64,000 bases of DNA from Verrucomicrobiota bacterium (GTDB taxonomy: Bacteria; Verrucomicrobiota; Verrucomicrobiia; Limisphaerales; PALSA-1396). Made by a program: the position numbers and the translations under genes. Within the stretch, counting starts at the first letter, position 1; each line of letters begins with the position of its first letter. The notes beneath the pieces were generated by a model. That model had not been told where the DNA came from, made no database searches, and saw only the letters and a program-made list of their open reading frames with translations. Positions 1,045 to 42,205 of this stretch are shown piece by piece. The stretch covers positions 1 to 64,000 of the forward strand of contig JACQFP010000003.1 in the NCBI GenBank assembly GCA_016200005.1. Reading direction: 5' to 3'.

Positions 1045-3111
1045 GTGAAACCTGACGACATACTCATTGCCCTCCAAGACCTCACCCAGCGTGAGCGCAT
1101 TGAGTTCCTGCCGCTCGCGCCGGATGCGCGCCAACCTTCGCCTTACGCCCCCATTGAAAAGTATCTGCTCGATCTAAAGAACAACGCAAAGCCGGAATCC
1201 GCCGCCGAAGATTTATTCACTGCGCTTTGCAAAGATCTGTTGGGCTTCCAGCCCACCCGCCAGGTCGGCGTCATGGAAGGCTTCGTGGATTTCATGCTGC
1301 CTGAACCGATGGAGCAGGCCCTTCCCCTTGAACTCAAGCCACTGTTTCAACGCGACGGCCCGGACGCACTTTGGCGCAGCGACGCCAATCCAAAAAACCA
1401 CGTCGCTCAGGTCAAAAAGTATTTGCGTGATCACGAATACCTCGTTCTCACCGACCTGCGCACGGCGTGGTGCTTCAGCACGCGCGACTTTTTCTTTGAA
1501 GGCAAACATTTTGCCGAATTGCCGTTCGTGGACTTTCTCAGCCGTTGCCGCGATAACCGCAGTGTGCTCGACGCCGTGCGCCGGTTGGAAGACACGGCGG
1601 ACAAACCCGAATTGGAACGCCAGTTCTTCGATGACCTCCGGCACTGGTTCAACGAATTCGACAAGGTCAAATGGACGCCGCCGGACCTCGCCGCTGAATC
1701 CATCATTCTCCTCATCAATAAACTCATTTTCGCCCGCACCATCGAGGACTTTGGGCTGGTCCCCTATCGCTACACGCAGGACGCCTACGCGCAACACACC
1801 CGCGACTGGCAGGCCAAAGGCCCGCACCGCATCGTTCCCAAGTTTCTCGATCAGTTCGAAGAGTTCTTCGATGAATACTACGACACGGAAATCTTCTCCG
1901 CCCGCGTCTGGGAACGGCTCGATAAAGACCCCGCCAATCTCCAGCGTTTTTGTGACAAGCTGAACTTCGTGCTCGGCCTCAACTCCTGGGACCAGACTTA
2001 CAGCCGCGGCATCGTCCATTACAATTACCGCCGCATAGACGAGGACATCTTCGGCAAGAGCTATGAAATGTTCCTCGCCGCCAACCGCAAGGACGAAGGC
2101 ATCTACTACACGCCCGCCGGCATCACCGCGCCCATGGCGGATTCGCTCGTGGATTCACTGGCGGGCAGAATCGTGGACGAAATCTGCGACGCCGTTGGTA
2201 GCCAGAAATGCGACTTCGCGCGCGCCGACCAACTCATGGCGTTGCTGGCCGAACTCCGCGTCGCCGACACAGCCGGCGGTTCGGGCGGATTTCTCATCAA
2301 AGTCCTCCGCGCCTTCTGGCGGCAATACCAGCGCATTGATTCGGCCAGCGCCTGGGTCGGCAAAATCCTGAAGCCGGACAACGGCGAACTGTATCTCGCC
2401 GAACTCCCGCCCAATGTTGAGAACGCGCTCGCCTTTCGCCGCCGCCACCAATTCGACAACCGCCGCGTTCTCATCGCCCAAATCCTTTTGCGCCACATCT
2501 TCGGCGTGGATAAAGACCCCGGCGCGCTCGAAGTCGCCAAGACCAACATCTGGAAAGAAGCCGTCAAACTTTCGCCCGCCGATTACAATTATCGCCTCCT
2601 CAAAACCGACGTCGTCAAAATTCTCCCGAACCTCGAATTGAATTTTCATTGCGCCGACTCGCTCGTGGACGTGGAACTGGAAAAGCAGACCGCGTGGCTC
2701 GCCGAGTATCATAAAGCGGAATTGAAAAAGCTGTCGGACCTCCGCGCGTGTTACATCGAGAATCCGATGAACCATGCGCCGCTGGACGAGGCGCTTGCCT
2801 TGCGCGCCAAACTCCGCGCCAATCTGGTCGAACATTTTCAGGGCGAAAACCTGCCCTGTGAACCCGCCGGTTTCGTGCTCCACCCGCTCATTCTTCCGCA
2901 GCCGAGGCCGCAGCGACGAAAGAAAGTCAGAGCCGACTCACGTCGGCTGCTACGAATGAAGCACTCGCCGGCTTCGACGGCATCATCGGCAATCCGCCGT
3001 GGGAAGGGTTCAAACCCATCCGCAAGGAATTTGCCGCCAACTTTTATCGCGGCAAACCGCAGTTCAGCAAGCTGGGCATGGACGGCCCGACGTTCGACAA
3101 GTGGTTCGTAG
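1045..3111 (+). CDS. Type IIG restriction-modification enzyme, N-terminal part (frameshifted)
   Basis: The first part of an Eco57I-like fused restriction and N6-adenine methylase. Near residues 60-85 it has 'GFVDFMLP' followed by 'LPLELK', fitting the D...ExK core of a PD-(D/E)XK nuclease. About residues 350-420 carry 'GIYYTPAGITAPM' and 'VADTAGGSGGFL', methylase motifs X and I. The catalytic NPPW motif (IV) comes next, but in another reading frame: this frame turns to nonsense after about 2890 and stops at 3111, while the homologous frame runs from 2862 to 4541. The start taken is GTG 1045; a TTG at 973 is further upstream. The shift lies in an alanine-rich stretch next to a palindromic repeat arm. 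The gene is either inactivated, split into two subunits, or affected by an assembly error. Confidence 0.75.
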   Translation: MKPDDILIALQDLTQRERIEFLPLAPDARQPSPYAPIEKYLLDLKNNAKPESAAEDLFTALCKDLLGFQPTRQVGVMEGFVDFMLPEPMEQALPLELKPLFQRDGPDALWRSDANPKNHVAQVKKYLRDHEYLVLTDLRTAWCFSTRDFFFEGKHFAELPFVDFLSRCRDNRSVLDAVRRLEDTADKPELERQFFDDLRHWFNEFDKVKWTPPDLAAESIILLINKLIFARTIEDFGLVPYRYTQDAYAQHTRDWQAKGPHRIVPKFLDQFEEFFDEYYDTEIFSARVWERLDKDPANLQRFCDKLNFVLGLNSWDQTYSRGIVHYNYRRIDEDIFGKSYEMFLAANRKDEGIYYTPAGITAPMADSLVDSLAGRIVDEICDAVGSQKCDFARADQLMALLAELRVADTAGGSGGFLIKVLRAFWRQYQRIDSASAWVGKILKPDNGELYLAELPPNVENALAFRRRHQFDNRRVLIAQILLRHIFGVDKDPGALEVAKTNIWKEAVKLSPADYNYRLLKTDVVKILPNLELNFHCADSLVDVELEKQTAWLAEYHKAELKKLSDLRACYIENPMNHAPLDEALALRAKLRANLVEHFQGENLPCEPAGFVLHPLILPQPRPQRRKKVRADSRRLLRMKHSPASTASSAIRRGKGSNPSARNLPPTFIAANRSSASWAWTARRSTSGS
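2922..2957 (+). repeat. Family A palindromic repeat, single arm inside the type IIG gene
   Basis: This is one arm of the repeat whose core is CTCACGTCGGCTGCTAC. The same arm closes the element inside mqnE (14015-14048), and in both genes it is read as the peptide ESQSRLTSAAT in the frame of the downstream homologous sequence. The matching left arm is not seen here. It sits in the window where the type IIG gene changes frame. Confidence 0.8.
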
Positions 3112-4541
3112 AGGAATTGAAAGCGAACAAGGAATTCGCCGCCCGCTGGCGTGCGCATGAGGAATACTACGAACGCAACAAGGAATACTTCAGCAAGACT
3201 TTCAAGAAGCAGGGCACCGGCGACTGGAATCTCTTCAAACTTTTTATTGAGCGCGACCTCTCGCTCGTCCGGCAGGGCGGGCAATTCTCGCTGCTTGTGC
3301 CCAGCGGATTCCAGACCGACGAAGGCTGCGCTGATCTCCGCCGTTGGTTCATCAGCGAACACCGGATGGATGAGCTGACTTCGTTTGAGAATCGCGGCTA
3401 CCCGGAAATCGTGGATGGCAAGGAACGCACGAAACATATTTTCCCGGACGTGGACAACCGCTTCAAATTCGGCTTCTTCAAAGTGGTTAAAGGCGAGGCC
3501 ACGCCCAAAGACCACGCGTTCGACGCGAGGTTTTACCTCCGCGATCCGAAAGATGCCTTCGCTCCGCCGATACATTACAGCGTCGAGATGTTGCGACGTT
3601 TCTCGCCCCAAATGCTTTCTGTGATGGAATTCCGTTCGGCGGAAGATTACGCCGTAGCTGGCAGGATTCGTGGTGAACACAAATTGCTTGGTGAACTTGG
3701 CTACCAATTCCGGCGCGAACTGCACCCGGCAGACGATGTGGAGTTCTATCTCAAGGAGCCTGCACGCAAGCTCCGCGAAGGCGAGTCCGTGATTTACGAA
3801 GGGAAGATGATCCAGCAGTTCGACGGCGATTTTGCCGCACGGGTTTTTCATGCCGAAGACAAAGTTGTCCGCCCCGAACTGCTCCGCAAGGAGCTTTACC
3901 GGCTCGGCCAATTCATCCGTGAAAGCGAGGTGCAAAAGGTCGAAGGCAAGAAAGTTCCGACCAAGAAAGACGAGTTTGAAAAATTTCTGGCCGAGCTTTG
4001 GAAGGCAAAAAAGTTCCAGCTTGATTGCGATTTTGAACGCGTGGTTTTCCGGCGCGTTGGCAGTTCAACCAACGAACGAACCATCATTGCCACTTTGCTG
4101 CCGGCGGGAGTTTATTGCTCCGACACCGTGAGTTATTTGATTCCGGCCAGCTACCAATTGACCAAGGCCGGCAAACTGTCTCGAGAACCGCTAACCGCCG
4201 AGGAAGCACGGTCGGTTCTTTGCCTGCTGGATTCGCTGACGCTGAATTACTACATCCGCAGCAAAATGTCAGCGACGGTAAACATGTTCTACATTTACGA
4301 ACTACCCGTGCCAGAACTTCCCACCGCGCAGAAAAAGAAGCTGGCTGATTCCGCCACCAAGCTCTTGAAAAACCCGCGAAACGTGAAGGAACGCGCCGCG
4401 CTGGAAGTTTTCATCACCCGCGAACTTTACGGCCTGTCGCCCGACGATTGGAAACATCTCACCGGCACCTTCACCTTCGGCGGCGGCGACTCCAAAGCCG
4501 AGTTGGACGAGATTATTCGCCTTTCTCTCTCGCTTTGGTAA
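3078..4541 (+). CDS. Type IIG restriction-modification enzyme, C-terminal methylase/specificity part
   Basis: The second part of the broken Eco57I-like enzyme. The frame is open from 2862, just after a TGA at 2859. Upstream of the ATG at 3078 it encodes 'GFDGIIGNPPWEGF', the catalytic motif IV of N6-adenine methylases, so the true product starts upstream of this ATG. The rest fits a methylase C-terminus plus a target-recognition domain: '[16 protein letters not shown]', then '[31 protein letters not shown]', given here only as its key part 'IYELPVP', typical of TaqI-type specificity regions. Joined to the upstream part the protein would be about 1,160 residues, normal for type IIG or PglX-like enzymes. 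The stop at 4541 is 14 bp before the ABC ATPase. Confidence 0.75.
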
Positions 4542-9224: not shown

Positions 9225-9782
9225 GTGAGAATTCTTGTTGCCATCACAGGGGCCAGCGGCGCGCTTTACGCGCAGCGCCTGCTGGATAATCTCGATCCAC
9301 GCCAACACGAACTGCACGTCGTCATGAGCAACTACGCGCACCAGGTCATTGCCGAGGAGCTGCCCGAGGGCTTGCGCCTGGCGGAAGGCGTCAAATCGCA
9401 CAGTTTGAAAAGCATGAACGCCCCCTTCGCCAGCGGTTCGAATCCGCCGGATGCGATGGTCGTGATCCCCTGCACCATGGGAACACTGGGCCGCATCGCG
9501 CATGGTTACAGCGAGGACGTGTTGCTGCGCGCCGCCGACGTGGTGTTGAAGGAAAAAAAGAAACTCATCCTCGTCCCGCGCGAAACGCCGCTCAGTCTGG
9601 TTCACGTGAAAAATTTTGAACTGCTCCTGCTGGCGGGCGCCACGCTGATTCCCGCAAATCCTAGTTTTTATTCCGGCGCCAAGACGATTACCGATCTGGC
9701 CGACACGGTCGTCGCCCGCGTGCTGGACCATCTCGGCGTGTCGAACCAACTCGCGCCGCGCTGGGCGGAAGAGAAGGACTAA
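9225..9782 (+). CDS. ubiX: Flavin prenyltransferase UbiX
   Basis: A 185-residue protein of the UbiX/Pad1 family. It uses dimethylallyl phosphate to prenylate FMN, making the cofactor of UbiD-type decarboxylases. Motifs seen: 'ITGASGALYAQRL' at the N-terminus (phosphate/FMN loop), 'VIPCTMGTLGRIAHG' and 'LVPRETPLSLVH'. The start is GTG at 9225, because the family begins M-R-I-L-V-A-I-T-G-A-S-G and no ATG fits. The neighbouring mqnP and mqnE suggest it serves the UbiD-like decarboxylase of the futalosine route to menaquinone; no UbiD homologue is in this window. Confidence 0.92.
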   Translation: MRILVAITGASGALYAQRLLDNLDPRQHELHVVMSNYAHQVIAEELPEGLRLAEGVKSHSLKSMNAPFASGSNPPDAMVVIPCTMGTLGRIAHGYSEDVLLRAADVVLKEKKKLILVPRETPLSLVHVKNFELLLLAGATLIPANPSFYSGAKTITDLADTVVARVLDHLGVSNQLAPRWAEEKD

Positions 9783-9920
9783 CCGCCGATGAACGCAGAT
9801 AAACGCAGATGGTGCATTTGGCACTCCGGCAAGTTCAGATTGACGCGCTCCATTCAGAGCGATGACCTGCCGAATCTGGTCGTTTCTTATCTGCGTTCAT
9901 CTGCGTTCATCTGCGGTTAA
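9783..9920. repeat. Inverted pair of GATGAACGCAGAT repeats between ubiX and mqnP
   Basis: Just after the ubiX stop, the unit GATGAACGCAGATAAACGCA begins. Just before mqnP, the same unit appears on the other strand (GCGTTCATCTGCGTTCATCT). The two arms, about 30 bp each, face each other across about 75 bp. The short tandem period resembles the ACGGATGAC repeats (family B) further along, with a different core. No gene is seen in this spacer. Confidence 0.75.
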
Positions 9921-9922
9921 AA

Positions 9923-10819
9923 ATGCTCTCCGCTGTTCAAAAGTGGGCCTCGTTCGTGCGTTTCTCGCATACAGTCTTCGCGCTGCCGTTCGCGCTGGCG
10001 GCGATGCTTGTTGCTGCGCGGGAAAACCGCGGCTGGCCAGGCTGGCGAATTTTTCTTTTGATCCTCGCCGCGATGGTGTGTGCGCGAACCTGCGCAATGG
10101 CGTTCAACCGCATCGTGGATCGAAAATTTGACGCACAGAATCCGCGCACGGCCAAACGTCATTTGCCCGCCGGCCAAATCTCACTCGTTAGCGCGATTCT
10201 GCTTTGTGGGTTGTCCGGTGCCGGATTCATCACGACGACTTTTTTCCTGAACCCGCTTTGTTTTTACCTCTCGCCCGTCGCCCTGCTGGTCATTTGTTTC
10301 TATTCGCTCACAAAACGGTTCACGGATTACACGCATGTTTATCTCGGCCTTGCCTTGGCGTTGGCGCCGGTGGGTGCGTGGCTCGCTGTGAAGGGCACGA
10401 ATGTTAATGCCGTGGATATTGCACGGATGGCCACACTCGCTGTGGCAGTGGTGCTGTGGCTGGTCGGATTCGACATCATCTACGCGCTGCCAGATTACGA
10501 GTTCGACAAGTCGCACGGCCTGCACTCCCTGGTGGTGGCGTGGGGACCCAAGAACGCGCTGCAAGCGGCGTTCCTGGCGCACATGCTCATGTGCGGGCTG
10601 CTGTTCGTCTTCGGATTTCTCTGCCGCTTCCGCATCGCCTACACCATCGGCTGGCTCATCATCGTCGGCTGCCTCGTGCTGGAACATTGGATTGCGAAGC
10701 GACGCAGCCTGAACTGGATCAACGTCGCCTTCTTCCGGTTGAACGCCATCGTGAGCGCGGTCTTCCTCGTCGTTGTGGCGGCGGAAGTGATTTTCAAGGG
10801 CGGGTTCAAGCTGCGGTAA
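9923..10819 (+). CDS. mqnP: UbiA-family polyprenyltransferase, menaquinone type (MqnP)
   Basis: A 298-residue integral membrane prenyltransferase with about eight to nine hydrophobic segments. The first Asp-rich motif is 'NRIVDRKFDAQNPRT' and the second 'ALPDYEFDKSHGLHS', the paired metal-pyrophosphate sites of UbiA enzymes. It would attach a polyprenyl chain to the aromatic ring. Genes for UbiX, this enzyme and MqnE lie together, which points to MqnP of the futalosine pathway rather than ubiquinone synthesis. The 3' end (FFRLNAIVSAVFL...GFKLR) occurs again as a remnant at 11518-11622, beyond a toxin-antitoxin module. Confidence 0.88.
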   Translation: MLSAVQKWASFVRFSHTVFALPFALAAMLVAARENRGWPGWRIFLLILAAMVCARTCAMAFNRIVDRKFDAQNPRTAKRHLPAGQISLVSAILLCGLSGAGFITTTFFLNPLCFYLSPVALLVICFYSLTKRFTDYTHVYLGLALALAPVGAWLAVKGTNVNAVDIARMATLAVAVVLWLVGFDIIYALPDYEFDKSHGLHSLVVAWGPKNALQAAFLAHMLMCGLLFVFGFLCRFRIAYTIGWLIIVGCLVLEHWIAKRRSLNWINVAFFRLNAIVSAVFLVVVAAEVIFKGGFKLR

Positions 10820-10860
10820 ACCGTCTTGCCAATGAATGGCAATAGATATACACTGCCGTT

Positions 10861-11124
10861 ATGAAAATGGACACTATGAACATTTCGCTGCCCAAGCACA
10901 TGTCCGAATTCGTCCGGCAGAATGTCGAGCGTGATTATGGCAACGCGAGCGAATACTTCCGCGATTTGGTGCGTGAAAAAATGAAGCGCGAGATTGAAGC
11001 CGACCTGAAATTTTTGGAATCCACCGGCAAAGGCGCGCTGCCCGGACCGAGCGAGGCGCAAATTGAAAAAGTTGTGGCCCTGCAAAAGAAACTGCGGAAG
11101 GAGCGCAATGCGCGTCGTTCTTGA
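10861..11124 (+). CDS. TA module 1: ParD-like antitoxin
   Basis: An 87-residue protein starting 'MDTMNISLPKHMSEFV', the ribbon-helix-helix start of ParD/CC2985-type antitoxins, which bind their own promoter as dimers. 'GNASEYFRDLVREKM' continues the DNA-binding fold. The charged C-terminal half would wrap the toxin. The gene overlaps the downstream PIN toxin by 17 bp, as expected for a translationally coupled pair. ATG at 10861 is used; an ATG three codons later is possible. Confidence 0.85.
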   Translation: MKMDTMNISLPKHMSEFVRQNVERDYGNASEYFRDLVREKMKREIEADLKFLESTGKGALPGPSEAQIEKVVALQKKLRKERNARRS

Positions 11125-11515
11125 CGCCAATGTGGTTGCCTCGGCGGTTTGCTGGAGTGGCGAAGCGTATCGCTGCTTTGTAAAATTGGCGCGCCGACAA
11201 TTTTTCGCCTATGGATCGGCTGAAACATTGCGGGAAGCCGAGGATGTCTCTTCGCATTTGGTTTGGGAGGAACGACCGAAACATAATGCCGCCGCGCGAC
11301 TGAACTGGTATTTGGAGAAAATAAAAATGGTCGAACCCGCACCATTGGGCAAACCGCGCAGCCGTGATGCGAAGGACGATTCCTATCTGGCCGTTGCCAT
11401 CGCCGCGCGGGCAAATTTTATCGTGAGCTACGACAAGGATTTGCTGGTCTTGAAAAAACCGTTCGGAATTGAAATCATTCGCCCGGCGCAGTTTTTGAGG
11501 CTGGTCAAAGGATGA
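11108..11515 (+). CDS. TA module 1: PIN-domain toxin ribonuclease
   Basis: A 135-residue PIN-domain protein of the COG1569 type. Acidic residues expected at the metal site are visible: 'VVLDANVVASA' at the N-terminus, 'ETLREAED' in the middle, 'SRDAKDDSYLA' and 'VSYDKDLL' near the end. Such toxins cut RNA when freed from the antitoxin. The start is ATG 11108, inside the antitoxin's last codons; the upstream-extended frame is only antitoxin sequence in another frame. The pair lies between the intact mqnP end and a second mqnP end. Confidence 0.85.
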   Translation: MRVVLDANVVASAVCWSGEAYRCFVKLARRQFFAYGSAETLREAEDVSSHLVWEERPKHNAAARLNWYLEKIKMVEPAPLGKPRSRDAKDDSYLAVAIAARANFIVSYDKDLLVLKKPFGIEIIRPAQFLRLVKG

Positions 11516-11517
11516 AT

Positions 11518-11622
11518 TGAATCAGATTAATTTTCTTCCGCCTCAACGCAATCGTGAGCGCGGTGTTTCTCGTCATCGTGGCCGCGGAGGCAATGTTTTC
11601 ACGCGGGTTCAAACTGCGGTAA
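11518..11622 (+). pseudogene. mqnP 3'-end remnant
   Basis: In one frame this stretch reads 'FFRLNAIVSAVFLVIVAAE' then '...RGFKLR' and stop, matching the last 29 or so residues of mqnP at 10733-10819. An in-frame TGA precedes it, so no product is made. The protein match is closer than the DNA match: many differences are third-position or conservative. This suggests the fragment came from another functional mqnP allele rather than from decay of a local copy. Confidence 0.85.
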
Positions 11623-11642
11623 GAGTGCGTAAAAAATTCCCC

Positions 11643-11671
11643 TTGACAAGCATTGCACTGTGAGGCATAAC
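11643..11671 (+). promoter_or_regulatory. Sigma70-like promoter of the PadR gene, probably leaderless
   Basis: TTGACA at 11643-11648 (full match to the -35 consensus), a 17-base spacer and CATAAC at 11666-11671 as a weaker -10. The ATG of the PadR gene at 11678 lies 7 bases after the -10, about where transcription would start, and no ribosome-binding site fits between. A leaderless transcript is inferred. Confidence 0.6.
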
Positions 11672-11677
11672 TCTGCC

Positions 11678-12016
11678 ATGCTTTCAAAAGAACTCGTCGC
11701 CGCCTCGACCGTGCCGCTGGTGTTGTCCGTGTTGACAGGCGGTGAGAACTACGGCTACGCGCTCATTCAGAGCGTGCGGGCATTGTCCGGCGGCAAGATC
11801 GAATGGACGGAAGGGATGCTTTACCCGGTGCTGCATTGGATGGAGAAGCAAGACTTGATTGAAGCCGAATGGCGCGAAGCCGAGACCGGCCGGAAGCGGA
11901 AATATTACCGGCTGCGCAAGGAAGGCCGTAAGGCGCTCCGGGAGGAGAAAGAGCAATGGTTAACCGTTCACGAAACCCTCGCAACTTTATGGAAAACGTC
12001 TCTCAGTTTGACCTAA
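11678..12016 (+). CDS. PadR-family transcriptional regulator
   Basis: A 112-residue winged-helix regulator of the short PadR type: 'LSVLTGGENYGYALIQSV', 'WTEGMLYPVLHWMEKQDLIEAEW' (shown here only as the family's Y-P-x-L helix-wing), and 'RKRKYYRLRKEGRKAL'. PadR proteins repress neighbouring transporter or membrane-protein genes and respond to small molecules. ATG 11678 is preferred because the family starts with a short helix ('MLSKELVAAS'); the frame is open to 11660. The 3' end overlaps the next gene by 28 bp, the usual PadR plus membrane-partner arrangement. Confidence 0.85.
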   Translation: MLSKELVAASTVPLVLSVLTGGENYGYALIQSVRALSGGKIEWTEGMLYPVLHWMEKQDLIEAEWREAETGRKRKYYRLRKEGRKALREEKEQWLTVHETLATLWKTSLSLT

Positions 12017-12603
12017 ACACGGCGCTTCGGCGCTGGCTGGAACTTCTCCGCCAATCACCACAAGTGAAGGCTGAGAATCTACAGGAGTTGGAGTCGCACG
12101 TCCGTGACTCGGTGGTGCAATTGCAAAGCAAGGGATTGTCGTCAGAGGAATCGTTTCTCATCGCGACGCACCGCGCCGGCAGCCCGGAAAAACTTGAACC
12201 CGAGTTCGCCAAAGTGAATCGGAATCCGTGGAACATGATCGTTCACGGATTGATTCTTGTTTTCTTCAGCGTTGTCTGCTGGTTCCTCTGGGGAACGCTC
12301 CACCTCCCGCAGATGACGCAAGGAATGTTGGCGAGACTTGGCGCGGTCGACCAGGCCACCGGTTATGGAGCATTGCCAGCCTTCACGCGGATGATGATGG
12401 GGCTTGGCAATTTGATGTTCGTGCCGCCACTGCTGGCTTTCATTTACTGCCTTTACGTTTGGTTCCAAAAATCCAGCGTAAAAAGTTCCTGGATGGGATT
12501 CTTCGCCTCCACGACGGCGGTCTTGATTTTCATCACGCTCCCAACGTTGATCGCGGTGGTGTTGCCGCTGATTGATTTGCTGAACCATCTTCCGGCGAAG
12601 TAA
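11989..12603 (+). CDS. Membrane protein with permease-prefix/DUF1700-like N-terminus, PadR partner
   Basis: A 204-residue protein. Residues 1-75 form a soluble helical domain ('RWLELLRQSP', 'ELESHVRDSV', 'GLSSEESFLIATHRAGSP') of the kind found N-terminal to permeases and in PadR-linked DUF1700 proteins. Three hydrophobic segments follow (about 85-105, 135-160 and 170-195). It starts inside the PadR gene (ATG 11989) and is probably cotranscribed and repressed by it. The function is unknown. Confidence 0.7.
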   Translation: MENVSQFDLNTALRRWLELLRQSPQVKAENLQELESHVRDSVVQLQSKGLSSEESFLIATHRAGSPEKLEPEFAKVNRNPWNMIVHGLILVFFSVVCWFLWGTLHLPQMTQGMLARLGAVDQATGYGALPAFTRMMMGLGNLMFVPPLLAFIYCLYVWFQKSSVKSSWMGFFASTTAVLIFITLPTLIAVVLPLIDLLNHLPAK

Positions 12604-12618
12604 TCCCCGTCTATTGGG

Positions 12619-12740
12619 AACGCGCTTTCCCTGCGACGCCGCATATGCTAACATTGGCGGCGTGACTTTCTTCGTTCAACGCAGCGAATTGCGCGACCTC
12701 TACAACAAGGTCGTGCGGGGGGAACGCTTGCCGTTTCGAG
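12619..12740 (+). pseudogene. mqnE 5'-end remnant upstream of TA module 2
   Basis: From GTG 12662 the frame reads 'FFVQRSELRDLYNKVVRGER', matching the mqnE N-terminus 'FFVQRSKLRDLYDKAAAGER' at 13536. Similarity also extends about 40 bases upstream of the start codon in both places. After about 23 codons the match ends and TA module 2 begins. It is a truncated copy of the mqnE start and translation-initiation region, not a gene. Confidence 0.82.
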
Positions 12741-12762
12741 CCGTGACTGTTACGGTAAAGCG

Positions 12763-13008
12763 ATGAAGATCGAAGTTCAGGATGAGGTGTTGCGCGGCTT
12801 GGAATTGACCGAGTCGCAGGCCTTGGTCGATCTGGCCGTGGGTCTTTTCACTGAGCGGCGCGCCACGCTGGGCCGCGCGGCGGAAATTGCGCGCCTGACG
12901 CAACTGGATTTCCAGCGGGAACTAGGACGGCGTGGCATCGCCCTTCACTACGACGTGGAGGATTTGCAGGCTGACCTGCGCACGCTGGCCGCGCTCCGCG
13001 AGAAATGA
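12763..13008 (+). CDS. TA module 2: UPF0175-type antitoxin
   Basis: An 81-residue protein with 'ALVDLAVGLFTERRATLGRAAEIA' (only its pattern is meant: a helical A-x-G-L-F...G-x-A-A-x-x-A core) and 'FQRELGRRGI', followed by 'LHYDVEDLQADL'. This is the layout of UPF0175 antitoxins, which pair with DUF3368 toxins. It overlaps the next gene by 4 bp (ATGA). Confidence 0.8.
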   Translation: MKIEVQDEVLRGLELTESQALVDLAVGLFTERRATLGRAAEIARLTQLDFQRELGRRGIALHYDVEDLQADLRTLAALREK

Positions 13009-13466
13009 TCGTTGTCAGCGACACGTCGGTTGTCACATCGTTGATCCACATCGGGCAGATAGCTTTATTGCAGAAGCTTCATGGAGTGGTGTTGATCCCG
13101 CAGGCAGTGCATCGAGAATTGCTTCGCACCCACGCAGACATTCCCGGCTTTCTGAATGTGCGGCAGGTTGTGGATGCCACGATGGTGGCACGCTTGGAGG
13201 CCGAGTTGGACTTGGGCGAAGCCGAAGCCATCGTGCTCGCCAAAGAAAGCCATGCCGACCTCCTCCTGATCGACGAAAAACTGGGGCGTCTGGTCGCGAT
13301 GCGCGAAGGCGTCCGGGTTGTCGGGTTGATGGGCTTGACCGTCGAAGCGAAGCGGCGCGGGCTGATTGATTCAGTGAGAGAACTTGTGCAACGGCTCGAG
13401 GCAGAAGCCGGATTTCGAGTGTCTGATTCTGTAAAGGACGAGGCGTTCCGCCTGGCCGGAGAGTGA
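13005..13466 (+). CDS. TA module 2: DUF3368 PIN-like toxin
   Basis: A 153-residue DUF3368/PIN-like protein: 'VVSDTSVVTSL' with the first acidic residue, 'LIPQAVHREL', 'LDLGEAEAIVLA', 'DLLLIDEKLGR' and 'VVGLMGLTVEAKRRG', the order usual for this family. It is a probable RNA-cutting toxin held by the UPF0175 antitoxin encoded immediately upstream. The stop lies 69 bp before mqnE, so the module separates the mqnE start from an older partial mqnE start. Confidence 0.83.
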   Translation: MIVVSDTSVVTSLIHIGQIALLQKLHGVVLIPQAVHRELLRTHADIPGFLNVRQVVDATMVARLEAELDLGEAEAIVLAKESHADLLLIDEKLGRLVAMREGVRVVGLMGLTVEAKRRGLIDSVRELVQRLEAEAGFRVSDSVKDEAFRLAGE

Positions 13467-13535
13467 GTCAGTCTGCGCAATTCGCCAAATGCAAACCTGC
13501 TTTCCCACCTGCGCCGCTTCTGCTAATCCTTTCTC

Positions 13536-14846
13536 GTGAACTTCTTCGTTCAACGCAGCAAACTGCGCGACCTCTACGACAAGGCGGCCGCCGGCGAACG
13601 CATTTCCGAGGCCGACGCACTGCGGTTGTTTGATTCGAAGGACCTGAACGCGCTCGGTGCCATCGCCGATCTAGCGCGGCAGAAGAAGGTCGGCAATCGC
13701 GCCAGCTACATCATCAATCGCTACCTCAACTACTCGAACTACTGCATCCTCTCCTGCCAGTTCTGCTCGTTCGCGCGCAAGAAACGCGACGCAGACGGCT
13801 TCGAGTTGACGATCCCGCAGATGGTCGAGAAGGCGCGCGAGGCGCTCAAGCTCGGCGTCACGGAACTGCACATTGTCGGCGGCCTGCACCCCTCGCTGCC
13901 GTTCAGTTACTACGTAGATATGCTGAAGGCGTTGAGCGCACTGAATACTGGTAGCAGCCGACGTGAGGAGGCTCAAACTGAATCCTCTCAACCCTCAACC
14001 CTCAACTCTCAACCGGAAAGTCAGAGCCGACTCACGTCGGCTGCTACGCCGAAGCTGCAATTGAAATGCTTCACCGCCATTGAAATCCTCCACCTCGCGT
14101 GGCTCGCGAAGAAAACGGTCGAGCAAACGTTGATTGAATTGAAGGATGCCGGCCTTGATTCCCTCACCGGCGGCGGCGCGGAAATTTTTCGCAAGGAAGT
14201 CCGCAGCGCCATCGCCAGGGGCAAGGAATCCGCCGAGGAATATCTGGACGTTCACCGAACCTGGCATCGCCTCGGCGGACGCAGCACCTGCACGATGCTG
14301 TTCGGCCACGTCGAATCGCTCGCCGACCGCGTGGATCATCTGCGGCAATTGCGCGCGTTGCAGGACGAGACGCGCGGGTTCGTCGGCTTCGTGCCGCTGC
14401 CGTATCAGCCGGAGAACAACGACATCCCGGTGAAGACGCCGCCCACGGGTTTCGACGCGTTGCGCACCATCGCCGTGAGCCGCATCTACCTCGACAACTT
14501 CGATCACATCACCGCCTACTGGGTGGGCCTGGGGCTGAAGCTGGCGCAAGTGGCGTTGAGCTACGGCGCGGACGATCTGCACGGGACGATCATCGAGGAA
14601 CACATCTTCCGAATGGCTGGGGCGAATCCGCCGCAACTCCGCCAGCGCGAGCACGCGACGGAGTCGGTGTTGCACCAAGTTCAAGCCGAAATGATCAAAG
14701 CCATCCGCGAAGCCGGCCGCACGCCGGTGCAACGGAATACGTATTACGAACCGATTCGCGTTCTGGCTGACGCGCCCGCAGCGAATGAAGCTGAACCGCC
14801 GTCGGGCAAATCCAAAGTGTTGGAGGATAATTTGGCGACGGCGTAG
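13536..14846 (+). CDS. mqnE: Aminodeoxyfutalosine synthase MqnE (radical SAM) with 34-codon repeat insertion
   Basis: The radical SAM enzyme that joins SAM to the chorismate-derived enolpyruvate benzoate in futalosine-type menaquinone synthesis. The cluster motif is C70-x3-C74-x2-C77 ('NYCILSCQFCSF'); 'LHIVGGLHPSLPFSYY', 'FTAIEIL', 'LTGGGAEIF' and 'TMLFGHVES' follow. The start is GTG 13536. At 436 residues it is longer than the usual 370-400. The excess is residues 138-171, encoded by a palindromic repeat at 13947-14048 inserted between 'LSALN' and 'PKLQLKCF'. It is exactly 102 bp, so the frame is kept. Fragments of this gene occur at 12619, 18452 and 19341. Confidence 0.92.
   Translation: MNFFVQRSKLRDLYDKAAAGERISEADALRLFDSKDLNALGAIADLARQKKVGNRASYIINRYLNYSNYCILSCQFCSFARKKRDADGFELTIPQMVEKAREALKLGVTELHIVGGLHPSLPFSYYVDMLKALSALNTGSSRREEAQTESSQPSTLNSQPESQSRLTSAATPKLQLKCFTAIEILHLAWLAKKTVEQTLIELKDAGLDSLTGGGAEIFRKEVRSAIARGKESAEEYLDVHRTWHRLGGRSTCTMLFGHVESLADRVDHLRQLRALQDETRGFVGFVPLPYQPENNDIPVKTPPTGFDALRTIAVSRIYLDNFDHITAYWVGLGLKLAQVALSYGADDLHGTIIEEHIFRMAGANPPQLRQREHATESVLHQVQAEMIKAIREAGRTPVQRNTYYEPIRVLADAPAANEAEPPSGKSKVLEDNLATA
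13947..14048 (+). repeat. Family A palindromic element inserted in frame in mqnE
   Basis: The left arm starts GTAGCAGCCGACGTGAGG (13951) and the right arm ends CTCACGTCGGCTGCTAC, each roughly the reverse complement of the other. The middle is a pyrimidine-rich run of CTCAACC units. The insert adds residues rich in Ser, Gln, Glu and Thr, which probably form a loop. The boundaries follow from rejoining the flanking protein to the expected family sequence. Confidence 0.88.
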
Positions 14847-14857
14847 AAATAACCACC

Positions 14858-15262
14858 ATGAAGCTCATAACTAAGAAGATCGCCACGAATGAATTGTTTC
14901 GCGAACGAGTGCGACACCTTCTCCGCGTCCGGATTCATGCGACGACCTTCCGCAGCCGAAATCCAAATTCGGTGGACCAAGAAGATCGTGTCTCGGATGT
15001 CGAATTCCTCTCAGTTCCTCGCATCACCAAAATCTGCGATCTTGACGCCAGCGAAGTGCAAATTGAGGGAAACATTCTCATTGAACTGACATTGCAGTCG
15101 CAAGTTCACGGTGTCGACGCCGAGGAAACGCTTTTGGACACCTCGGCCAAAACATGCAGGTTCACGTTGGTTATTGCTGGACATGCGCGGACAAACGCTG
15201 AGTTGACAAAATCCGAGATTGAGCGGCTGACAATCGAGGTGCGGCACTTCTCCACCACCTAA
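14858..15262 (+). CDS. Hypothetical protein, first gene of the cargo block
   Basis: A 134-residue soluble protein with no recognised family. The N-terminal third is basic; the rest alternates charged and hydrophobic residues, as in a small beta-rich domain ('EGNILIELTLQSQVHG', 'CRFTLVIAGHAR'). It starts 12 bp after mqnE and 27 bp before the AAA gene, on the same strand. Codon use is AT-richer than in mqnE. It may be the partner of the AAA protein, by position only. Confidence 0.55.
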   Translation: MKLITKKIATNELFRERVRHLLRVRIHATTFRSRNPNSVDQEDRVSDVEFLSVPRITKICDLDASEVQIEGNILIELTLQSQVHGVDAEETLLDTSAKTCRFTLVIAGHARTNAELTKSEIERLTIEVRHFSTT

Positions 15263-15288
15263 ATCTCATGAAGGCCAGTTAGCTCGCT

Positions 15289-17076
15289 ATGGACACTACT
15301 GTTTACTGCGATCAAGGCAAAGAAACACTTAATCGCCTACTCAGACTCTTCCGAAGCGTTATGTCCAAGGAAGAGTTCCAGAAACGCGATGCGGAGCGCC
15401 AATTAACGGAGGTTGCCTCGTGGTTTGTCGCAAAAGTGCTGAAGTCCTACCCAATATCAGATGAAAACAGAATCCAGTTCTGGAGCGCTCTTTTTGGAGG
15501 AGAGCAGCCCTTGATGCAAATCTCCGAAACACTAACCCGTCACGCCGAGTTCGAATCTGCACCGCCTCCGCTACTCAATTTTGGGATCGAACACGACAAA
15601 TTATGCGGGACTCGCGTTTCGGCTACCTTTGTGCAGTTCCTCATGGTACTGGGGTTGTTAGCTACTCTGCTCAACGAGCAAAAACCAAGAACCAATGAGG
15701 AAGGAAATCTGATACTGTCTCCAGCGGAACAGTGGTTCCAAAATTATGTCTTCAGTATGGAGGAGTACTTCAAACAGTTTGGAATTCCGAATCAGGTGGA
15801 CACCTGCTTGGGTGCATTTGGTGAGGACGGAAAAGAAGTGTGCGATTGTATTGGCGACGTCTGCATGGGATGGGCGTTCGATAAGAAAATTGAACACGCG
15901 CTGGACGGGGGCCTAACGATTTATCAGGACACATCTGTTGACGATCAGGCCTTTAACAAGATCAGGGAGTTTTTTCTCAGCAGGAAATTGAATTTTGACG
16001 GCGCGGCACTGAAATTCGCAAAGGAGAATTCCAGATTTCAGCTTATGGTTCCCACAAAGGGGGAGGAAAAAGGCAATCCACACTTTGTTCAGTTCTGGAG
16101 GCAACTATGCAACGAACTGTCCGAACAGGCACTCGCTGGCGAATTGGTTGACTTGCGCTTTTGTGATGTTTTTTGGTCAACAAGGGTCGTCTATGCTGAC
16201 AACAGAAAACACAAATTGCCGACATCTGAACTCTCGCCGCTGCCCACTGTAGGCGACATCGATCAAACATTGCAGGAATTACGTGATATGATTGGTCTCA
16301 ACGGCGTTAAGAGGGAGGTTTTTTCGCTGGTCAACCTGATCAAGGTCCAGAAACTACGCGCAGCCCAAGGACTAAAAGCAACCCCCATTTCCCTTCACCT
16401 TGTTTTTACCGGCAATCCTGGAACTGGAAAGACAACCGTTGCGCGGCTGATAGGTAGAATCTACGCAGCGCTCGGCCTCATATCAAAGGGGCATGTGGTG
16501 GAAGTTGACAGGAGTGGTCTCGTTGCCGGTTATGTCGGGCAAACTGCGCTGAAGGTGCAAGAGGCTGGCCAGCGTGCGCTTGGCGGAATTCTATTTGTAG
16601 ATGAAGCTTACTCCTTGGTGAAGGAGAACGACATCTTCGGCCAAGAGGCGATTGACACCCTTCTGAAGTTCATGGAAGACCACCGAAACGAAATGGTCGT
16701 AATTGTGGCGGGCTATCCGAAATTGATGGACAAGTTCTTGGAATCAAATCCCGGACTAAAATCCCGATTCGCCAGAGTGATCCCGTTCGAGGATTATTCA
16801 GTCGATGATTTGGCGTCGATCTTCGCCCGAATGTGTGAATCCGGCGGGTATATTTATGATGCGGAATTCGAGAAGGCGCTCAGAGAAGCGCTCGGGGAGA
16901 GAACTCAAAGTGAGAACCAATCTTTTGCAAACGCCAGAGGGGCAAGGAATCTTTTTGAAACCCTCCTGCTAGTTCATGCGAACAGAATGGCATCAATTGA
17001 AACACCCAGTAAGGATGATCTGGTTCGGTTTACGTCCGATGATATGATGAAGGTTGAGATAGGCGGAGTGAGCTAA
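15289..17076 (+). CDS. CbbX/SpoVK-type AAA+ ATPase with unknown N-terminal domain
   Basis: A 595-residue protein. Residues 1 to about 330 match nothing I recognise and are mainly helical ('VYCDQGKETLNRLLRLF...'). From about 335 there is a CbbX/SpoVK/EccA-type AAA+ module: 'MIGLNGVKREV', Walker A GNPGTGKTT (375-383), 'AGYVGQTALKV' pore-loop region, Walker B 'ILFVDEAYSL' (about 433), sensor 'VVIVAGYP' and arginine finger 'NPGLKSRFARVI'. Such modules remodel partner proteins in secretion, Rubisco activation or defence. The AT-rich composition and the position between mqnE copies mark it as acquired cargo. Confidence 0.75.
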   Translation: MDTTVYCDQGKETLNRLLRLFRSVMSKEEFQKRDAERQLTEVASWFVAKVLKSYPISDENRIQFWSALFGGEQPLMQISETLTRHAEFESAPPPLLNFGIEHDKLCGTRVSATFVQFLMVLGLLATLLNEQKPRTNEEGNLILSPAEQWFQNYVFSMEEYFKQFGIPNQVDTCLGAFGEDGKEVCDCIGDVCMGWAFDKKIEHALDGGLTIYQDTSVDDQAFNKIREFFLSRKLNFDGAALKFAKENSRFQLMVPTKGEEKGNPHFVQFWRQLCNELSEQALAGELVDLRFCDVFWSTRVVYADNRKHKLPTSELSPLPTVGDIDQTLQELRDMIGLNGVKREVFSLVNLIKVQKLRAAQGLKATPISLHLVFTGNPGTGKTTVARLIGRIYAALGLISKGHVVEVDRSGLVAGYVGQTALKVQEAGQRALGGILFVDEAYSLVKENDIFGQEAIDTLLKFMEDHRNEMVVIVAGYPKLMDKFLESNPGLKSRFARVIPFEDYSVDDLASIFARMCESGGYIYDAEFEKALREALGERTQSENQSFANARGARNLFETLLLVHANRMASIETPSKDDLVRFTSDDMMKVEIGGVS

Positions 17077-17101
17077 TTTGGCCGCGGCGTAAGGCTTCTC
17101 A

Positions 17102-17776
17102 TCAATGTTCGATTCTTGGCAAGTCAACGAGTTTAACCTGCGGGTCGTGCTTCATAATCTGCCGTGCCTGCATATCAGAGACGACTAACTGCTTCCCACC
17201 CTGATGCGGGAAGTGAAGCACAGCCGCCCAGGTGGGCGTGCCGGTGAGATTGCAAAAAAGATGATGAACAGACTCCAACGATGTCTGGCGATTCATTGTG
17301 CTTTTCGTTTCTTGCTCGTGACGCCAACGCCCGTCCGCTTCCCGCACGATACTCGCCAAGAATAATCGTGCTGACGAGGTCAGAAAGTCATAAACCAAGT
17401 CAGCTCGTGCAGTGCGGCTTCGATTGCGCGCGTCTTGGCCCAAAAATCTGTCTCCGCCCAAATCCCCGACATAATCATAGTCGCCACAACCGTCAGCCCC
17501 GTGCGCAAATGACGATGTCAGGTGAGTGACGTGTTGCTCGATTGCGTTGTGGCTATTGGTGGCGAACCTGAACTTGATTTTCCAATCACCGACTTTGCCG
17601 TATCGAGAGAACCAAAACCAGTGAAGCGCGTTCGCTATCGGCAGGACATTTTCCCCCGCAAAAGTTTCCAATGCACTTTCAGTGTCGTAAGGCGCTGCAC
17701 TCGGCAGGCACAAATGAAGTGACTTGTGGACGAGGTGTGCGATTGGACTGCAAGTTCGTTCCTCAACTGATTTCAT
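17102..17776 (-). CDS. Hypothetical protein in cargo block
   Basis: A 224-residue protein of unknown family. It has tryptophan and aromatic-rich stretches ('NALHWFWFSRYG', 'GDWKIKFRF') and a Gly/Asp-rich middle ('HGADGCGDYDYVGDLGGDR'). The start ATG overlaps the stop of the gene at 17773 by 4 bp (ATGA), so the two are coupled on the minus strand, this one second. It is convergent with the AAA gene. The composition is like a true protein, but no motif assigns a function. Confidence 0.5.
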   Translation of the reverse strand: MKSVEERTCSPIAHLVHKSLHLCLPSAAPYDTESALETFAGENVLPIANALHWFWFSRYGKVGDWKIKFRFATNSHNAIEQHVTHLTSSFAHGADGCGDYDYVGDLGGDRFLGQDARNRSRTARADLVYDFLTSSARLFLASIVREADGRWRHEQETKSTMNRQTSLESVHHLFCNLTGTPTWAAVLHFPHQGGKQLVVSDMQARQIMKHDPQVKLVDLPRIEH

Positions 17777-18378
17777 GGATGCAATTTTGTTTTGTCCGCT
17801 CTAAATTGTCCAGCGCACGCCGGGCAGAGGCCACCGGAAACATACACGGAAACTGTCAAGCAAGACGCGCACTTTGGGGCTTCGATCCACTCGCGACTTC
17901 GGATTCGCATTTCGAAGTGAGGTATGTCCTCATACGCGAAATGAGGCCCTTTCGATGATTTGCCGGTAATGTCTTGGAGAACCGCGAGGTGCGCGGCAAA
18001 CCCTGAACCGTCCTTCGCGCCTGAGCCGGGAATCTTGCCGCATGGCTCAAGTGAAACGGCGTTGAAGCTTTTCTCTGTGGGATAGTAGTAGACCTTGCAG
18101 CCGGTTGGATTGTTGGCGTCGCCGGACGACATATAGTCAAAGATTGCCTTGGTGCAGATTTGATCACTTCTAAAACTCTTGAATCGCGTTACGGTGGTTG
18201 CGTCGGTCGGGAAATGCTTCGGGTCATCTCCGTATGGAAACTTCATGCGTGCTCGAATGCACTCGGGGCATTCAGGGAACGTGTGAGGGGTAAGATTGTA
18301 GTCTCCGTGCTGCGGACAATTTGCTTTCATATTTACAAATATGGCGAACACGCCGTGGAACACAGGTTTTTTTTTCAT
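17773..18378 (-). CDS. Zinc-ribbon-like hypothetical protein
   Basis: A 201-residue protein with two cysteine pairs at each end: 'CPQHGDY' and 'PECPEC' near residues 21-40, and 'CASC' with 'GLCPAC' near 169-190, fitting two small zinc-binding modules. The middle has 'NNPTGCKVYYYPTE'. The start is ATG 18378, and ATG 18327 is an alternative. Longer readings upstream run backwards through an mqnE fragment and TA module 3 and are rejected. It is first of a coupled minus-strand pair with the gene ending at 17102. The function is unknown. Confidence 0.6.
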   Translation of the reverse strand: MKKKPVFHGVFAIFVNMKANCPQHGDYNLTPHTFPECPECIRARMKFPYGDDPKHFPTDATTVTRFKSFRSDQICTKAIFDYMSSGDANNPTGCKVYYYPTEKSFNAVSLEPCGKIPGSGAKDGSGFAAHLAVLQDITGKSSKGPHFAYEDIPHFEMRIRSREWIEAPKCASCLTVSVYVSGGLCPACAGQFRADKTKLHP

Positions 18379-18409
18379 CGAGCCACCAAGACTGTTCGCA
18401 TTGAGATGA

Positions 18410-18550
18410 TTTGCCGGAGCTTTAAGCATTTTTCCCAAAAGCGCATCACCGACTTCGTGCCGCTGCCGTATCAGCCGGAGAACAACGACCTCCCGGTGCA
18501 GACCCCGCCCACGGGTTTCGACGCGTTGCGCACCCTCGCCGTGATCTGAT
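18410..18550 (+). pseudogene. mqnE internal fragment, left copy beside TA module 3
   Basis: 18452-18543 matches mqnE 14387-14478 almost base for base: 'FVPLPYQPENND' and 'TPPTGFDALRT' are read in frame, then a TGA follows. The 40 bases before it (starting TTTGCCGGAGC) are not from mqnE but recur at 19286 before the second fragment. The whole unit is thus a direct repeat flanking TA module 3. Confidence 0.85.
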
Positions 18551-18596
18551 GAAATTCCTGTTTGCCCGCGTTCGTGACCGGGTTTAATCTTTTGCC

Positions 18597-18827
18597 ATGA
18601 GCACGCTCGCAGAAATCGAGAAGGCGGCGGAAAAATTGTCTCCGCTGCAGAAGCAGGAATTGATGCTGTTCCTCGGCTCGCAATTGCGAACCGAAAGGAA
18701 TGGGCACGCTCCCCGCAATCTGCCGCCCGCCGAGCGCGCGGCGGATTTGCAGCGCTGGGCGGCCAGCCATGAGCGCGGGCCGGGCTTGCCTGATTCCGCC
18801 ATCGGACGTGACGCCATCTACGACTGA
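18597..18827 (+). CDS. TA module 3: small antitoxin
   Basis: A 76-residue protein beginning 'MSTLAEIEKAAEKLSP' with 'QKQELMLFLGSQLR', a helical start common in small antitoxins that precede VapC toxins, and a C-terminal tail 'GPGLPDSAIGRDAIYD' that may insert into the toxin active site. Its stop codon shares one base with the toxin start (TGATG). No DNA-binding motif is obvious. Confidence 0.75.
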   Translation: MSTLAEIEKAAEKLSPLQKQELMLFLGSQLRTERNGHAPRNLPPAERAADLQRWAASHERGPGLPDSAIGRDAIYD

Positions 18828-19285
18828 TGGCCACTTACCTCGCTGATACGAATCTGCTGTTGCGCCTCGCTGATCCAGCCTCGCCGCAACATCCCATTGC
18901 AACCGATGCGCTCGCCCGCCTTTTGGGCCGAGGGGATGAGGTTTATCTCACGCCGCAGAATTTCATCGAGTTCTGGGCTGTCGCCACGCGACCGGTGGAA
19001 GCGAACGGTTTCGGCTGGACCAGCGAGCGAACCACAAAGGAAGTCACCGATTTGCAGGCGCGCTTTCCCTTGCTGCCGGACTCACCGGAGATTTTCACTC
19101 GCTGGCTGGAGCTTGTGAAACAACTGCCCGTCCACGGCAAGCGCGTTCACGACGCGCGTTTGGTCGCCGTGTTGCAAGCCCACGCAGTCGAGCACTTGAT
19201 CACTTTCAACACTTCCGACTTCACCGTGTTTTCATCGCTTTCATTGGTTGATCCGCGTTCGCTCGTTTCGACGGCGGGGAAATAG
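18827..19285 (+). CDS. TA module 3: VapC-like PIN toxin
   Basis: A 152-residue PIN-domain protein. The likely metal-binding acids are in 'YLADTNLLLRL', 'NFIEFWAVATRP', 'RVHDARLVAVL' and 'FNTSDF', the usual D-E-D-D order. It is a predicted RNase toxin coupled to the upstream antitoxin. The module lies exactly between two copies of a repeat unit containing an mqnE fragment (18410 and 19286). Confidence 0.85.
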   Translation: MATYLADTNLLLRLADPASPQHPIATDALARLLGRGDEVYLTPQNFIEFWAVATRPVEANGFGWTSERTTKEVTDLQARFPLLPDSPEIFTRWLELVKQLPVHGKRVHDARLVAVLQAHAVEHLITFNTSDFTVFSSLSLVDPRSLVSTAGK

Positions 19286-19767
19286 TTTGCCGGAACTTCA
19301 AGTCGTTTTCCCAAAAGCACGCCACTCCCGACAGGTCGGGACTGCCGTATCAGCCGGAGAACAACGACATTCCCGGTGCAGACGCCGCCCACGGGCTTCG
19401 ACGCGTTGCGCACGATCGCGGTGAGCCGCATCTACCTCGACAACCCCGAATGCTTTCGGGGCTGGCGCAAGTGGCGTTGAAGCTCGGTGCGGACGATCTG
19501 CACGGGACGATCATCGAGGAACAAATCTTCCACATGGCCGGCGCGACCTCGCCGCAACTCCGCCAGCGCGAGCACGCGACCAGGTCGGTGTTGCAGACCG
19601 AAGCCGAAATGCTCAAAGCCATCCGCGAAGCCGGCCGCACGCCGGTGCAACGGAATACTTTTTACGAACCGATCAAAGTGCTTGAAGAGACTTCGCCGTC
19701 GGTAAATGAAACCGAACCGCCGTCGGGCAAATCCAAAGTGTTGGAAGACAATCTGGCGACGGCGTGA
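19286..19767 (+). pseudogene. mqnE 3' fragment, right copy beside TA module 3
   Basis: Starts with the same non-mqnE lead as 18410, then matches mqnE from 'LPYQPENND' to the natural C-terminus 'KSKVLEDNLATA' and stop at 19767. An extra T (CATTCCCGG instead of CATCCCGG) shifts the frame. Two micro-palindromes are embedded: TCCCGACAGGTCGGGA at 19326-19341, and an 18-base CCCCGAA...TTCGGGG at 19444-19461 that replaces about 42 bases of mqnE. It is a dead copy of the last third of mqnE. Confidence 0.88.
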
Positions 19768-39009: not shown

Positions 39010-39014
39010 CCACA

Positions 39015-39246
39015 AAGGAATTTGACCACGGATGACACGGATAACACGGATGAGATAAACCGCGAAATACGCCAACCACGCGAAAACCCGGAGCTTGAAA
39101 AGGGATGGGAGGCGGAGGGACTCCTTCACCGGCCGGCTTCCAGCGCGGAGCTTCCAGCGCGGAGCGGTGAAGAAGACCTTTTCCGAAAGCCCTTCTCCGT
39201 TCGCGTATTTCGTGTGGTTCGCGGTGCCATCCGCTGCTTTTTTTAG
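39015..39246. repeat. Composite repeat, copy 1 (about 230 bp)
   Basis: It begins GGAATTTGACCACGGATGAC (family B arm), continues with a family C arm (ACCGCGAAATACGCC), then a unique GC-rich core, and ends with an opposed family C arm (TTCGCGTATTTCGTG). It is nearly identical to 40050-40264, except for an extra tandem 14-base unit TTCCAGCGCGGAGC. The two copies flank the gene pair at 39287-39917. A family A arm (AGCCTCCTCACGTCGGCGGC) follows at 39253-39281. Confidence 0.88.
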
Positions 39247-39286
39247 CGGAATAGTCAGAGCCTCCTCACGTCGGCGGCTACGAGAG

Positions 39287-42172: not shown

Positions 42173-42205
42173 TGAATCTGAATGGTTTGCGGTTAGTCTC
42201 CTCTC

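Follow-up and report, generated by a model that had tools for sequence, protein, structure and literature searches.

Toxin-antitoxin (TA) modules in the bacterial genome studied here repeatedly stand between a conserved gene and a partial copy of that gene's end, and we suggest, with a probability of about 50%, that they came from related bacteria through homology-anchored additive recombination at gene ends. The stretch of DNA analyzed (hereafter, the window) comprises 64,000 nucleotides (nt) from a Verrucomicrobiota bacterium (GCA_016200005.1, contig JACQFP010000003.1, positions 1 to 64,000). It lies on contig C3 of a metagenome-assembled genome (MAG) of 87 contigs and 6.54 Mb, referred to as G000; G001 is a same-genus relative, and the prefixes L and C denote loci and contigs. 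The junctions are described as they stand in the assembled contigs. Within positions 9923-19767, three TA modules each sit against partial copies of the menaquinone genes mqnP or mqnE, in agreement with an initial annotation that had placed three such junctions in less than 10 kb. That annotation had also stated that the functional gene is left complete each time, and both the mqnP-like prenyltransferase and MqnE are indeed encoded by complete open reading frames (ORFs). The features of this region are as follows.

9923..10819, + strand, mqnP-like gene of a UbiA-family prenyltransferase, complete (Pfam UbiA 1.9e-48; MqnP exception models match below their cut-offs)
10730..10819, + strand, 3' end of mqnP, the copy joined to the TA module (sequence repeat)
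10861..11124, + strand, putative antitoxin with a weak ParD-family match (TIGR02606 3.8e-8, 33.2 bits versus a cut-off of 46.2; no Pfam match)
11108..11515, + strand, PIN_3 toxin (PF13470 4.2e-16)
11533..11622, + strand, remnant of the mqnP 3' end, in the ancestral place (followed by sequence that matches the downstream side of a relative's mqnP)
11660..12603, + strand, PadR regulator gene and its partner ORF, in the ancestral interval between mqnP and mqnE
12624..12710, + strand, remnant of the mqnE 5' end plus ~37 nt from upstream of it (79% over 87 nt to the mqnE start)
12763..13008, + strand, UPF0175 antitoxin (PF03683 8.6e-18)
13005..13466, + strand, DUF3368 toxin (PF11848 1.9e-11)
13536..14846, + strand, mqnE, complete (TIGR03700 4.9e-127, 423.6 bits versus a cut-off of 434.55)
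18403..18449, + strand, leader of ~47 nt without an mqnE match (repeated at 19279-19325, 77%)
18450..18544, + strand, internal mqnE remnant (nt 849-943) on the left side of the third module (95% to mqnE)
18597..18827, + strand, small ORF in the antitoxin position (no family match)
18827..19285, + strand, PIN (VapC-like) toxin (PF01850 2e-8)
19342..19765, + strand, mqnE 3' remnant (nt 862-1309; 82% to mqnE, nearest mqnE disputed)

By family match, the window modules are predicted to be type II TA systems (PIN_3, DUF3368, PIN, and UPF0175 are all over their Pfam cut-offs), with the first antitoxin scoring below its cut-off and the third being unclassified. In the second module, UPF0175 (PF03683) presumably has the antitoxin role, and we take DUF3368 (PF11848) to be a PIN-like toxin. 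The PIN toxin of the third module is 42-49% identical to plasmid-borne relatives (eight listed of 15), five of which are annotated as VapC.

The first module sits between mqnP and a copy of the last ~90-110 nt of mqnP. The mqnP end is repeated at 11513-11622 (75% over 110 nt ungapped, or 80% over 92 nt), and the stop codon is shared. Behind the remnant, the DNA matches that downstream of mqnP in G001, with a score reached by 0 of 300 shuffles; for the sequence behind the intact mqnP, 76% of shuffles reach the score, which is no match. Thus, it is the remnant that occupies the ancestral position, and the mqnP end next to the TA module is new. From the mqnP remnant through PadR, the interval has its counterpart in G001, and PadR with at least part of its partner ORF is present in both G001 and L013. 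Gene order in G001 is UbiX-mqnP-PadR-mqnE, with neither a TA module nor a remnant between these genes, so that a relative in the empty state, which the initial annotation had suggested looking for, does exist. Upstream of mqnP in the window, a 31-nt inverted repeat (94% complementary, 9780-9810 and 9889-9919) lies between a UbiX-like ORF and mqnP.

The UPF0175/DUF3368 pair is placed between a copy of the mqnE start and intact mqnE, and the third module (18597-19285) has an mqnE fragment on either side and is 3.6 kb past the intact gene. Further mqnE tails were found in G000 directly behind a DUF433/DUF5615 pair (C87:5888-6119) and behind other genes (C31:84326-84389), so the earlier view of mqn genes as insertion platforms is too narrow. 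A menaquinone-specific hotspot is rejected because flanking repeats also occur at many unrelated genes (see below). The C87 unit (L009 5206-6125) stands beside an isocitrate-dehydrogenase-like gene (label assigned by eye), far from mqnE, and this neighboring gene had no matches in the 29 relatives searched. The C87 pair also has ~20 nt resembling the mqnE end on its left side and a 12-nt repeat on both sides (by eye). A search of viral contigs for the mqnE-tail pattern found none. The mqnE coding sequence itself contains a dispersed palindromic repeat, in frame (window 13951-14047, mqnE nt 410-520), which accounts for 40 of the 47 genome matches of mqnE DNA.

Related genomes carry other TA families at mqnE ends, a point that the initial annotation had suggested checking. 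UPF0175/DUF3368 genes occur upstream of mqnE at L071 (start remnant present) and L067 (remnant undetected), while HigBA-like pairs occur behind mqnE in G015 and G028 (tail remnant present) and at L063 and L069 (remnant undetected). DUF433/DUF5615 pairs lie behind mqnE at L014 and L043 (remnant present) and ~550 nt downstream of it in G027, on a contig with a run of N, and the third window module recurs in L019 between the corresponding mqnE fragments. At L132 (G028 C76), a PIN match at 3095-3403 just past the mqnE remnant behind the HigBA-like pair is possibly a second module at this mqnE end. An apparent extra copy on G015 C39 was set aside, as its 127 nt are identical to a piece of C322 and end there, and it was taken to be a contig-end overlap.

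The association between TA modules and remnants proposed in the initial annotation is therefore not absolute, although it is borne out by linkage across the whole genome (below). TA modules at an mqnE end without a remnant at E ≤0.01 (L063, L067, and L069), and mqnE fragments without TA genes in the ORF lists (L015 and L016, in both of which the fragment is behind another gene, and C31), both weaken a strict one-to-one link. These remnant-free TA loci and TA-free fragments fit donor-like states or later loss. The initial annotation had further proposed that a module rebuilding the end of a probably essential gene would be hard to lose cleanly.

The presence of the same TA family on one given side of mqnE in several genomes, near-identical remnant starts (nt 1148/1149 in G015/G028, and nt 849 in the left remnants of the window and L019), and the C87 locus, where a DUF433/DUF5615 pair and an mqnE tail stand at a distance from mqnE, could point to a site-specific element, in which the TA family carries a fixed gene-end segment as an attachment site and an unseen recombinase acts in trans. 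However, limits of the alignments or common descent may account for the remnant starts, and the repeats of one toxin family vary in both source gene and length (for DUF5615, the genes are mqnE, one sigma-like gene, and one ABC-like gene). The initial annotation had seen no integrase, transposase, or resolvase, and a Pfam scan of 14 window proteins likewise gave no recombinase, transposase, or integrase family above cut-off (small alternative ORFs were outside the scan). We consider a site-specific element very improbable. Integrative elements such as tRNA-type islands rebuild the 3' end of the gene they enter, and they have both an integrase and a defined att site. The loci described here are similar in that the target gene is rebuilt and a remnant lies on the far side, but differ in that neither an integrase nor a defined att site was seen (14 window proteins) and the repeats vary in gene and length.

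At the scale of the genome, we compared the 1500 bases to the left of each toxin locus in G000 with those to its right, and recorded same-strand repeats of at least 40 nt and at least 70 bits. Toxin matches in G000 numbered 29 for PF01850, 5 for PF18480, 13 for PF13470, and 4 for PF05016; L192 (contig end) and L341 and L375 (short flanks) were left out. Results showed that 16 of 49 usable toxin loci were repeat-flanked (PF01850 9/28, PF18480 2/5, PF13470 3/12, and PF05016 2/4), or 15 of 48 after de-duplication (L365 and L207 denote a single place, and one repeat is common to L203 and L371). None of 29 usable response regulators, used as controls, was repeat-flanked (30 of 115 matches fetched), and neither were most random positions in 858 kb of G000 (19/600 flanked, three of these on TA genes: the window's third module twice and a DUF4160/DUF2442 locus once). 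Toxin loci in G000 hence carry flanking repeats more often than expected by chance (Fisher P = 2e-4 for 16/49 versus regulators; P = 3e-4 and 8e-10 for 15/48 versus regulators and random positions, respectively).

Repeats flanking toxin loci were 60-232 nt long, and a gene-end piece was evident in 9 of the 15 (L182, L190, L196, L197, L198, L211, L213, L368, and L378). Source genes, assigned by eye from ORFs, included MFS-like, SMC-like, sigma-like, alpha/beta hydrolase-like, ABC-like, ThiG-like, and other genes; the MFS-like, SMC-like, and hydrolase-like genes each occupy one place in G001. No gene end was assigned to the repeats at L193, L199, L203, L205, L369, and L377, that of L205 being a low-complexity repeat. 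An unbiased scan of the 858 kb recovered 25 low-copy repeat pairs outside single ORFs. These included the three window modules, a DUF4160/DUF2442 pair (DhiT/DhiA-like, below NCBIfam cut-offs) with a 424-nt repeat (93%), and an AAA_14/DUF4143 gene with a 330-nt repeat (88%). The latter repeat is a gene-end repeat, and on C31 (81942-84389) it is followed by the mqnE tail.

Differences between intact and remnant copies were tallied by codon position in 19 partly dependent pairs (13 from G000 and six from relatives), which gave 97/67/218 differences at positions 1/2/3. A strong third-position bias was found at the DUF4160/DUF2442 locus (3/3/23), on C31 (10/3/28), and at the SMC-like (5/3/15) and MFS-like (2/3/11) genes. 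In three-way counts for seven G000 pairs (one outgroup per gene: G001, or G004 for genes with no G001 sequence to hand), the outgroup agreed with the intact copy only in 68 cases and with the remnant only in 55. An excess of change in the remnant of 2:1 (P = 0.0095) or 3:1 (P = 2e-6) is rejected, and remnants are not detectably faster. Per-gene counts (intact/remnant) were 9/4 for MFS, 7/10 for SMC, 9/5 for mqnP (G001), and 28/26 for mqnE.

The initial annotation had proposed aligning remnants with the intact genes of relatives. Ten mqnE remnants set against 91 intact mqnE sequences, with both local score and aligned identity as measures, gave a divided picture: another genome's mqnE outranked the remnant's own by both methods in six of the ten (C31, C87, L016, L019 right, L043, and L015), the own mqnE came first in three, and the methods conflicted for one. 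For example, the mqnE tail on C31 is 92% identical to the mqnE of L019 versus 76% to its own (92 columns). The C87 remnant scores highest against the mqnE of L043, whose DUF433/DUF5615 genes are also similar to those of C87 (antitoxin 94% and toxin 80% identical; the C87 antitoxin is 93-94% identical to those of L014/L043), a likeness that would fit transfer of the pair together with the mqnE tail. An insert of ~134-163 nt is present at mqnE nt ~841 in L015, L017, and G015. Because of the codon positions, the roughly equal outgroup counts, and the mqnE rankings, many of the copies appear to have diverged as working genes in separate lineages before meeting, while some look like native duplicates. 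In situ duplication followed by neutral decay is accordingly disfavored as a general rule by the pooled codon positions and rates, and is kept for some cases.

Copies that resemble two functional alleles could also be produced by an assembly artifact, whereby one strain's gene and TA module in a multi-strain metagenome are joined to another strain's gene end to yield false allelic duplicates. The statistics rest mainly on one genome, and one such case was seen in G027, where an internal mqnE duplication (C410, L137) spans a run of N and was dropped as a probable scaffolding artifact. Nonetheless, the N count was 0 in the sampled parts of C22, C3, C87, and C31 (4 in C6), 7 of the 19 pairs contain frameshift gaps, and the TA-remnant architecture recurs in independent assemblies (window/L071, window/L019, G015/G028, and L014/L043). 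Moreover, repeat pairs without cargo numbered only eight in 858 kb (three of them at least 85% identical), and the control loci lacked flanking repeats altogether. An artifact thus seems improbable to us as a general explanation.

Restriction-modification (R-M) systems offer a closer precedent. Nobusato et al. (2000) and Furuta et al. (2010) reportedly described R-M insertion with long target duplication. Excerpts of two papers (PMC3031569, PMC3874152) describe R-M systems that insert with long and variable target duplications on the order of 100 bp, which runs counter to the initial annotation's view that no element of this type had been described. As portrayed in these excerpts, such a system is a selfish addiction module without a transposase of its own that leaves a ~100 bp direct duplication of the neighboring target. 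Two features are shared by the loci here: direct repeats flank the module, and G001 has an empty site. The cargo differs, consisting here of PIN, DUF5615, ParE/HigB-like, and DUF4160 toxins, as does the resemblance of many copies to diverged orthologs rather than to a fresh duplication, and the number of loci in one genome.

An R-M type insertion, in which a module arrives by an unknown route, 50-460 bp of native target are duplicated, and the spare copy decays, would account for the remnants of G015, G028, and L014 being nearest to their own mqnE end (96%, 90%, and 90%, respectively). Remnants nearest to their own gene would be expected from a genuine target duplication, from a donor of the same species, or after gene conversion. 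The window's right mqnE remnant and the intact mqnE of its genome also have in common a 33-nt segment that G001 and L017 lack, the repeat size fits the duplications "of the order of 100 bp" in the excerpts of PMC3874152 and PMC3031569, and the frameshift gaps mentioned above are in keeping with a decaying copy. On the other hand, the pooled differences show a third-position bias with both copies about equal in rate, another lineage ranks first for most mqnE remnants, and homology stops at the start or stop codon at mqnP, the mqnE tails, L182, and L190. We therefore regard target duplication as a doubtful explanation for the loci as a whole.

Acquisition from related bacteria by recombination at gene ends is itself challenged by several results. 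Polarity is shown at mqnP only, and the foreign copy at other loci is presumed; both sides of the mqnE start resemble L013, and flank comparison at the MFS, SMC, and hydrolase genes gave no signal. No third-position bias was found at the mqnE start (3/1/1), the window's left remnant (3/1/1), the hydrolase-like gene (3/5/6), L043 (8/9/11), or G015 (1/1/0). The mqnP remnant looks faster with L021 or L030 as the outgroup (12/5 each), and MFS leans likewise. In addition to the three own-nearest remnants, the window's short left mqnE remnant is nearest to its own mqnE (95%), and its right remnant, with the 33-nt segment, gives conflicting placements (identity is 90% to L017 versus 85% to its own mqnE, and score puts its own first). 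The repeat runs past the start codon into upstream sequence by 45 nt at L213, 67 nt at L196, and ~37 nt at mqnE. A search of 41 relative loci for a donor with the TA proteins of the SMC, MFS, hydrolase, sigma, and L190 loci found none (one of the eight queries was out of frame). Finally, one MAG drives the enrichment statistics: PIN loci of relatives were repeat-flanked in 4 of 55 usable cases (68 fetched, of which 28 were tool-chosen and 40 hand-picked from a list, and 13 dropped), which is not significantly above the random positions in G000 (P = 0.12) and lower than the 9/28 of G000 PIN loci (P = 0.005). The phenomenon is therefore strong in G000 and sparse elsewhere. PF01850 matches number 29 in G000 versus 3 in G001 (82% complete).

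Under gene-end recombination, incoming DNA would carry a TA module adjoining the 3' or 5' end of a conserved gene, and the donor gene end would pair with the recipient copy, leading to a homologous crossover. The far side could then close by illegitimate joining, as in homology-facilitated illegitimate recombination, or, were the donor circular, a single crossover might be enough. In homology-facilitated illegitimate recombination, the illegitimate joint typically has microhomology. The product would be a complete gene with a donor-derived end, then the module, then the recipient's displaced end as a remnant, and addiction to the TA module may help the event to be kept. TA modules adjoining mqnE without a detected remnant (L063, L067, and L069) possibly represent the donor state. 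A ComEC-type competence protein match is present in G000; such proteins are common, and the match is permissive at most.

Comparable events have been described in other settings. In Escherichia coli, the products of single crossover with a plasmid that bore a gene end had gene-end duplications of 109-950 bp, according to sections of PMC3240628. As presented there, the likeness lies in one homologous anchor combined with an illegitimate joint, although the system was a laboratory assay with no link to TA modules (PMC3240628). For type VI secretion system (T6SS) effector-immunity modules in Vibrio cholerae, the authors propose, in the portion of PMC5361080 available, a route akin to homology-facilitated illegitimate recombination. 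There, too, a toxin-immunity module enters via a conserved anchor and older genes are pushed downstream, but that account is of T6SS clusters only, and the displaced genes are immunity genes rather than housekeeping gene ends. Our literature search, which most subscription journals lay outside, found no description of such gene-end insertion for TA modules. In the available extracts of texts pairing "toxin-antitoxin" with "target duplication," the latter phrase concerns R-M systems, insertion sequence (IS) insertions, or a cited title, and pairing "toxin-antitoxin" with "homology-facilitated illegitimate recombination," or with "partial duplication" and "illegitimate recombination," retrieved nothing.

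These results suggest that TA pairs spread by riding on borrowed gene ends, and bear on the question of how TA modules in chromosomes can be mobile in the absence of transposons. Should anchoring at gene ends prove general, the mobility of TA modules would be a by-product of homologous exchange between relatives. This would explain the presence of the same TA families beside the same gene in different species, and housekeeping genes adjoining TA modules would be predicted to have mosaic ends. The signature (gene end, TA module, and remnant with third-position differences) can be searched for in any genome set. A more speculative extension, which we think unlikely as it stands, is that a TA module plus a conserved gene end forms a recombinase-free mobile unit, whereby each TA family would spread between species along one housekeeping gene, replacing that gene's end under the protection of addiction, and competent bacteria would accumulate such units genome-wide.

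Elsewhere in the window, 39002-40261 and the flanks of a PDDEXK_3 gene (42064-42814) were considered as TA-type repeats and rejected, being dispersed intergenic repeats by eye (three pairs). A candidate TA pair lies at 42702-43423, where a ParE_toxin match (43169-43408) is preceded by a small upstream ORF.

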